Source of the DNA: Erysipelotrichaceae bacterium
GTDB lineage: Bacteria > Bacillota_I > Bacilli_A > Erysipelotrichales > Erysipelotrichaceae
Reading direction: 5' to 3'
Assembly: GCA_017432545.1 (NCBI GenBank)
Contig: JAFRJA010000057.1
Coordinates: forward strand, 1-64,000
Length of the DNA: 64,000 bases
The position numbers were made by a program, and so were the translations under genes. Shown piece after piece: positions 55,438-56,457 of this stretch (positions within the stretch are counted from its first letter, which is position 1; each line of letters starts with the position of its first letter). The notes beneath the pieces were generated by a model. The model saw only the letters and a program-made list of their open reading frames with translations. It was not told the origin of the DNA and did not search any database.

Positions 55438-55584
55438 TCTCCCTATAAAACCTCTAAGAATCAATATCTTAATGCGGACATCAATGGCGCATTAAATATT
55501 CTAAAGAAAAGTAGTGTTGTGGACGTAAACGTCCTATACGGTAGAGACGCAGTGGACACACTGTTAAGAATAAGGATAGCTTAA
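55438..55584 (+). pseudogene. tnpB: 3' remnant of a TnpB (IS200/IS605-type) gene
   Basis: Directly after the reductase stop, a frame without start reads SPYKTSKNQYLNADINGALN and ends RDAVDTLLRIRIA at TAA 55582-55584. NADINGALNIL is the last RuvC (RuvC-III) motif of TnpB, the RNA-guided endonuclease of IS605 elements, and the RIRxA end is typical. Only about 48 codons are left; no TnpA or upstream part is seen. Confidence 0.85.
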
Positions 55585-55672
55585 CTATACTGATACAGTT
55601 AAGTGAACAAAGCTTAAATATCAAACTTCTTAATAAGTCCATAAATCTTCAGCTTATGGGAGGTTCACATAT
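55585..55672 (+). mobile_element. Possible right end / omega-RNA region of the IS605-type remnant
   Basis: Just after the tnpB stop CTTAACT (55580-55586) pairs with AGTTAAG (55597-55603), and further short stems follow up to about 55670. In intact elements the tnpB 3' end and right end give the guide (omega) RNA. The exact element boundary cannot be set without an intact copy. Confidence 0.45.
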
Positions 55673-55696
55673 GACCACTCCACACAGCGTTTGTGG

Positions 55697-55702
55697 TATT
55701 AT
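55697..55702 (+). promoter_or_regulatory. Extended -10 box TGG-TATTAT for the DUF3800 leader RNA
   Basis: TGn plus TATTAT; transcription is expected to start near 55709, just before the structured GC-rich segment. Confidence 0.55.
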
Positions 55703-55708
55703 ATTTAT

Positions 55709-55779
55709 GTAAGCGGGCTGGTCACAAAGACCCGGGTCCGACCGAACTGGCGAAGGATACTCTTCGCTTTTGTTTTCAT
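55709..55779 (+). ncRNA. Structured leader RNA before a DUF3800 gene
   Basis: A GC-rich 70-base segment unlike its AT-rich surroundings. CGG (55714-55716) can pair with CCG (55738-55740) and GGTC (55720-55723) with GACC (55729-55732); then GCGAAG (55750-55755) with CTTCGC (55762-55767) followed by TTTTGTTTT, an intrinsic terminator that ends 3 bases before the ATG. RNA motifs upstream of DUF3800 genes (the DUF3800-I to -XI motifs) were reported from comparative genomics; whether this is one of them needs a covariance search. Confidence 0.6.
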
Positions 55780-56457
55780 ATGAGATGTTTAAGTGTATTT
55801 GTAGATGAGAGTGGAGATTTCGGAATAAGTGAAAACTCATCGCTTTATTATGTCATTACGATGGTCTTTCATGATCAGAGTTTTGATATTCAGGATCAGA
55901 TATCCAGACTGGAAAAGGAATTGTCTAATCTTGGATAGAAAGATCATGTTGTTCACAGTGAACCGCTGATCATGAGAAGAGGTGAGTATGGATATCTGTC
56001 ACCACTGGAAAGAAAGGCAATATTCCAGAAGATCTATCACTTTGCGATAAGATGCAATATCAGATACAAGCAGTTCTACTTTGAAAAAAGAGAAGTCAAA
56101 GATGCTTTTGAGTTAAGAGCCAGGATTGCAAAGAGCATCTCTTTATTCATCAGACAGAAATATGATGTGATAAGCAGATTTGAAAAAGTCATTCTTTACT
56201 ATGACAACGGCCAGAAAGAGATCAACAATATTCTGAATACGGTATTCGCTACAGAATTGTCTGCACATGAAACAAGACTGGCATATCAGAAGGATTATCG
56301 TCTTTCTCAGGTTGCTGACATGATCTGTACATTGAAACTTCTGGAAGACAGAGCCAGTAACAATTCTTTAAGCCGCTCAGAGGAACTTGTCTTCGGATCC
56401 AGAAGAGTCTTGATAAAAGATTTTATTAAGCCAATCAAAAAACCGGAATGGAAGTAA
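55780..56457 (+). pseudogene. DUF3800 domain protein with one in-frame TAG
   Basis: From ATG 55780 (no ribosome site) the frame opens RCLSVFVDESGDFG, the DUF3800 (RNase H-like fold) signature with an acidic DESG. TAG at 55936-55938 interrupts after 52 codons; the same frame continues to TAA 56455-56457, giving about 225 codons in all. The later QVADMICTLKLLEDR segment is the family's conserved C-terminal part with its Asp. Only one lesion is seen, so the loss looks recent, or the TAG is read through, or it is an error. Confidence 0.72.

Follow-up and report, generated by a model that had tools for sequence, protein, structure and literature searches.

A DUF3800-XI-type RNA that commonly occurs without its gene: comparative analysis of an RNA-coupled putative nuclease

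Among bacterial DUF3800-XI loci the short RNA commonly occurs without the DUF3800 gene that follows it, whereas no intact gene without the RNA is among those found. This comparative asymmetry is the new part of the present analysis, which set out from one copy in an Erysipelotrichaceae bacterium (assembly GCA_017432545.1, contig JAFRJA010000057.1, positions 1 to 64,000; this whole stretch of 64,000 nucleotides is referred to as the window). From sequence comparison, a fold model and analogy we tentatively propose, at a probability of roughly 45%, that the RNA restrains an RNase H-fold nuclease in the manner of a type III toxin-antitoxin pair, without being a member of that type.

The features of the window locus are compiled in Table 1. 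The locus shows an extended -10 promoter, an RNA of about 65 nt with two hairpins, a terminator, no ribosome site and one TAG, which bears out the preliminary description. The terminator stem spans 55749-55768 and is followed by TTTGTTTTC, and 3 nt lie between the end of the U-tract and the DUF3800 ATG (55780). A search of the sequence before this ATG revealed no Shine-Dalgarno motif; altogether 11 of the 93 relatives, among them the closest intact one, lack the motif too. The single-sequence fold of the RNA (-24.7 kcal/mol, z about -2) was equalled by 6 of 200 shuffles and is by itself weakly unusual. What lifts the window RNA above chance is homology, namely its Rfam match, three further RNA/DUF3800 pairs in the same genome and covariation. 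The remnant of a tnpB element, which is no part of the module, ends some 25 nt ahead of the RNA promoter, and C-terminal TnpB residues (NADINGALNI..) can be read from it; the remainder of the element is gone, and many copies occur in the genus.

Table 1. Features of the window locus.
Feature	Positions	Strand	Basis
IS605-type tnpB element, 3' remnant and right end (neighbour outside the module)	55440..55669	+	77-93% identical copies in the genus
Extended -10 promoter of the RNA, TGG-TATTAT	55694..55702	+	sequence; same extended -10 in L072
Predicted DUF3800-XI-type RNA transcript (two hairpins, U-tract)	55709..55777	+	ends inferred; RF02975 match, covariation
Hairpin 1 (10 pairs, 2-nt bulge, small loop)	55714..55739	+	RF02975 match, folding, covariation
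Hairpin 2, intrinsic terminator GGCGAAGGATACTCTTCGCT + TTTGTTTTC	55749..55777	+	folding, terminator call, covariation
DUF3800 gene, 225 codons, TAG at codon 53	55780..56457	+	PF12686; homology to L072
In-frame TAG, codon 53	55936..55938	+	TTA (Leu) in L072

When the Rfam DUF3800 motifs were searched permissively with cmscan, as had been suggested beforehand, DUF3800-XI (RF02975) emerged at 55714-55762 with an E-value of 1.9e-4 and 29.8 bits. This score lies under the curated gathering threshold of 37.8 bits, at which a search of the whole window gave no match. Judged by its sequence, the window RNA is a diverged, sub-threshold DUF3800-XI homologue outside the curated membership, and the family is catalogued but unexplained; the notion of an undescribed RNA did not hold. 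The motif itself is reportedly due to Weinberg et al. 2017. As in the RF02975 consensus, a hairpin 1 with a 2-nt bulge is followed by a second hairpin, both with covariation, and a same-strand DUF3800 gene lies directly downstream. The Rfam model ends within the second hairpin, which is really the full terminator. The window genome has four of each, DUF3800 gene and DUF3800-XI RNA, paired one-to-one on the same strand, the genes starting about 14-30 nt past the end of the model match, and two of the other RNAs pass the threshold (56.9 and 46.4 bits).

Comparing the upstream regions of relatives, a check that had likewise been proposed, revealed strong covariation. In an alignment of 35 diverse RNAs, 97.1% of the pair cells hold standard pairs, and 13 of 17 pairs show changes on both sides (7/10 in hairpin 1, 6/7 in hairpin 2). 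Pairing falls to about 55% when the partner is slid by one column, and none of 500 shuffles reached the observed value by any measure. The linker between the two hairpins differs by a few nucleotides only. A match to at least five of the six TATAAT positions lies no more than 60 nt ahead of the RNA in 60 of 63 relatives, versus 32% of random positions. Some Lachnospiraceae versions (L131, L138, L145, L146, L148) carry an extra hairpin ahead of the terminator. Tandem RNAs were seen twice: at L239 (G940:C28) a degenerate copy precedes the main RNA by about 140 nt, and at L260 (G889:C4) two RNAs are 903 nt apart with no gene.

Scanning 84,980 species genomes gave more than 500 protein relatives, of which the best 80 were read together with 13 relatives from viral contigs. 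The order of promoter, hairpin 1, linker, terminator and start codon is kept in 92 of these 93; the single exception, L139, is truncated by a contig end. Homologous genes lacking a conserved upstream structure, which the preliminary description had named as counter-evidence, did not turn up among the 93 read. The layout occurs in Erysipelotrichaceae, Lachnospiraceae, Treponema, Fibrobacter, Salinivirgaceae and Flexilinea, spanning five phyla. Since a phage collection and a plasmid collection gave one match each, the module is mainly chromosomal. The closest relative (L072, genome G232) belongs to another species of the genus, has an intact gene for a protein 77% identical, and shares a near-identical terminator hairpin with the window copy.

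Shortly downstream of this relative lies another DUF3800-like gene, different in type (L289, G232:C20, 824-1495), surrounded by several short GG-leader peptides that resemble bacteriocin precursors. DUF3800 genes of other subfamilies were also seen in the same family. A DUF3800-I RNA stands upstream on the same strand in L053, L054 and L056; in L046, L055, L066 and L069 it is downstream and convergent to the non-XI gene. As a plain count, 6 of 21 such non-XI loci (L044, L045, L048, L051, L058, L069) have tRNA genes within about 2 kb; three of these loci have arrays of 4-6 tRNAs, and L051 a duplicated Ile-Ala pair.

With the TAG read as X, the window protein scores 36.6 bits against Pfam DUF3800 (PF12686, cut-off 21) and the intact L072 protein 43.9 bits; DUF3800 is the sole Pfam family common to all 60 relatives. 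An AlphaFold2 model of the L072 protein, built with 60 relatives, reached a pLDDT of 93.8 and a pTM of 0.90. Its best solved structural match is RNase HII (1eke; Z 9.0 over 163 residues, 3.8 A), followed by Piwi/Argonaute (7yfq; Z 8.1), and Foldseek likewise pointed to RNase HII (E 3.4e-4). These match scores are moderate and are evidence of fold, not of function. With high confidence the protein is predicted to adopt an RNase H fold closest to that of RNase HII. Each of the 64 dereplicated relatives has D9, E10, D142 and D180, as expected for a metal-dependent RNase H-type active site; the protein is a putative nuclease. RNase HII has the motif DE-A/S-G; the DUF3800 protein shows an early D-E pair in strand 1 (DESGD) and two later aspartates, which would fit an active site of that type. 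In contrast to RNase HII, it has extra helices, a coupled RNA and no sequence-family match, and the likeness stems from the fold model. No PADLOC model covers the DUF3800-XI protein, and a PDB sequence search with it gave chance matches only. An RNase H fold of DUF3800 has already been recorded for a TPR-DUF3800 protein beside Cas12a2 (PMC10910872) and also in the 2025 CRISPR classification (PMC12669027).

The window copy itself looks like a relic, in that promoter, RNA and terminator appear functional and the protein would end after residue 52. The TAG had been read beforehand as either a recent loss or a regulated recoding, and the first of these stands. Against L072, the gene has a pN of 0.159 and a (saturated) pS of 0.827; pN is similarly low before and after the TAG, and there is no frameshift. 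On this comparison the TAG appears to be a recent inactivation, an assembly error being less likely. Recoding was rejected: TAG ends 5 of the 31 window ORFs of more than 250 aa, L072 has a Leu codon at the site, and a second such TAG (G170) lies elsewhere in the gene. All four DUF3800 proteins of the window genome are damaged; one of the other copies carries D9N (C59), and two are cut short (C92, C103).

The dependency of gene on RNA was assessed in 397 Lachnospiraceae genomes, the same set being searched for RNA and for protein. The RNA accompanies each of the 32 intact genes: Rfam detects 29 of these RNAs, 2 are sub-threshold variants, and 1 sits at a contig edge where the terminator alone is visible. 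Conversely, among 80 RNAs the gene is intact for 29, broken or stopped for 12 and missing for 36, and 3 RNAs lie at contig ends, so that an intact gene is wanting for 48 of the 77 that can be evaluated. The sample from the window's own family and phylum gave 22 of 29. Fifteen RNA-positive sampled genomes lack any XI-type gene, some of these matches being weak and one lying at a contig end. Near-consensus orphan RNAs exist as well (70.9 bits), and in L185 the gene was removed by an internal deletion that left the RNA, the first codons and the C-terminus. It is important to note that the mutational target of the RNA is about ten times smaller than that of the gene and includes the promoter; part of the asymmetry therefore arises without any need of an antitoxin.

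An obligate pairing of gene and RNA would also fit if the RNA were a cofactor or specificity RNA of an RNP effector nuclease, the protein being inert alone and nothing acting as inhibitor. The structural likeness of the protein to RNase HII and Piwi, and DUF3800 proteins beside Cas12a2 and VI-F loci (PMC10910872, PMC12669027), argue in this direction. On the other hand, the RNA of about 62 nt has no variable guide region, and a cofactor RNA deprived of its protein should decay, whereas orphans retain covarying pairs and terminators. We consider a cofactor role somewhat unlikely. A guided nuclease of the OMEGA/TnpB-like kind found no support, since a search inside the RNA of relatives, their unmapped 5' tail aside, found no guide-like variable segment of guide length.

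Whether orphans are maintained was judged mainly by features outside the Rfam model, because they had been collected with that model, which biases the set toward well-paired copies. A U-tract is present in 45 of 49 orphans, in 38 of 42 loci with intact genes and at 23% of random positions. A clear -10 was found in 34 of 49 orphans (69%), 40 of 42 intact-gene loci and 32% of random positions; as about a third of the orphans are without it, some are relics. The median CM score is 58.6 bits with intact genes and 47.6 in orphans. Broken base pairs, scaled by the number obtained when the same stem differences are placed at random, gave a ratio of 0.363 for orphans and 0.346 for intact genes; in broken-gene loci the pairing constraint is weaker (0.59, n=20). 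Orphans taken alone covary, with 42 cells showing both-side changes against a shuffle mean of 10.1, and the gene-less RNAs of G204, G472, G477 and G125 have 4-7 stem differences and zero broken pairs. Part of this divergence may predate gene loss. A search for orthologous orphans in two species found no colinear orphan pair, the genus of G477 comprising one genome. Altogether, these comparisons lend moderate confidence to the view that many orphan RNAs are maintained.

These data also bear on the reading of the RNA as a mere cis leader, a promoter-proximal attenuator that sets DUF3800 expression with no role in trans, the orphans being leftovers. The terminator immediately 5' of the gene suits such a leader; with the promoter inside the unit no intact gene could lack the RNA, the small target size accounts for part of the orphan excess, and orphans do fall in promoter retention and CM score. 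However, hairpin 1 is conserved beyond what a terminator needs, the fold shows no alternative pairing with the terminator, the primary sequence is much alike over several phyla, and the gene-less orphans keep U-tracts and covarying pairs, down to the four without a broken pair. An attenuator acting in cis alone seems unlikely to us, and the pattern across relatives speaks for an RNA partner rather than a plain leader, as the preliminary description had supposed. That RNA and gene form a mobile element, with the hairpins as its end, DUF3800 as a transposase-like recombinase and gene-less copies as internal deletions, is very improbable: the scattered distribution over phyla, the gene-less and internally deleted copies and some flanks shared in shifted positions would agree with it, but copies within one genome are divergent and far from near-identical, the homology between most loci breaks off at the promoter and the gene end, where no terminal repeat common to them was seen, and the closest solved fold is RNase HII and no transposase.

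Several observations concern the surroundings of RNA loci. For three pairs of loci (L013/L023, L012/L027, L242/L231), flanking sequence that precedes the RNA in one genome follows it in the other, with 80-88% identity, which suggests that these loci lie where DNA is being rearranged or exchanged. The orphan or broken loci L204, L270, L231, L242, L032 and L029 adjoin toxin-antitoxin-type genes (nucleotidyltransferase, AbiE-like, Phd-like and HigB-like, from sequence reading and Pfam). Toxin-antitoxin or defence genes beside RNA loci without an intact gene include AbiEii, nucleotidyltransferase, mads and PDC-S09; for both sets presence alone is recorded. A third conserved gene was sought beside the RNA loci without an intact gene, and each of the 188 Pfam families found there occurs in at most 4 of 134 neighbour proteins.

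Among known systems, AbiF/RCd22 of C. difficile offers, by analogy, the closest experimentally tested precedent. There, work of 2025 showed the abiF-motif RNA to be a type III-like RNA antitoxin, which binds AbiF and neutralises it both in cis and in trans (PMC12373285). Both modules combine an own promoter, a short structured RNA, an intrinsic terminator and a protein gene reached by read-through. They differ in that RNA (abiF motif, RF03085) and protein families are unrelated, AbiF belonging to Abi_2 and having no RNase H fold, and in that RCd22 contains two copies of its own motif. In type III toxin-antitoxin systems (ToxIN, CptIN, TenpIN, AbiQ) a tandem-repeat RNA antitoxin, a terminator and the gene follow each other (PMC5086642). 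The DUF3800-XI module has the same order, including the intrinsic terminator, and likewise an RNA excess over protein is likely; unlike those systems, its RNA has no tandem repeats (hairpin 1 occurs once in the window copy and in nearly every relative), and the protein falls outside ToxN/AbiQ/CptN/TenpN, with RNase HII and Piwi as best folds. Strict membership in type III was rejected on these two grounds.

Restraint of the nuclease by its RNA remains our preferred reading. In the module, a short, separately transcribed and terminated DUF3800-XI-type RNA would be followed, behind the terminator, by a metal-dependent nuclease of RNase H fold. Much RNA would come from transcription and a little protein from rare read-through; the RNA would bind the nuclease and keep it inactive, following antitoxin logic, until some trigger releases it. 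If the RNA holds a toxic nuclease inactive, loss of the RNA would be barred for as long as the protein works, but the protein could disappear at any time. An RNA that neutralises a harmful nuclease would agree with the layout, a termination-driven RNA excess, the obligate RNA and the frequent cases in which just the protein was lost. Going further, the modules might constitute a new class of RNA-controlled toxins with a single-unit, non-repeat RNA, and gene-less RNAs might serve, in trans, for anti-addiction or for immunity when further DUF3800 modules come in; we regard this extension as conceivable, at odds well short of even.

Rfam holds a series of DUF3800 RNA motifs that lack a functional explanation. 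The one-way dependency makes this association testable, in that it predicts harm from the protein when the RNA is absent, and an action of the RNA in trans. Should this hold, an RNase H-fold branch would be added to the RNA-based toxin-antitoxin or defence systems of common gut bacteria.
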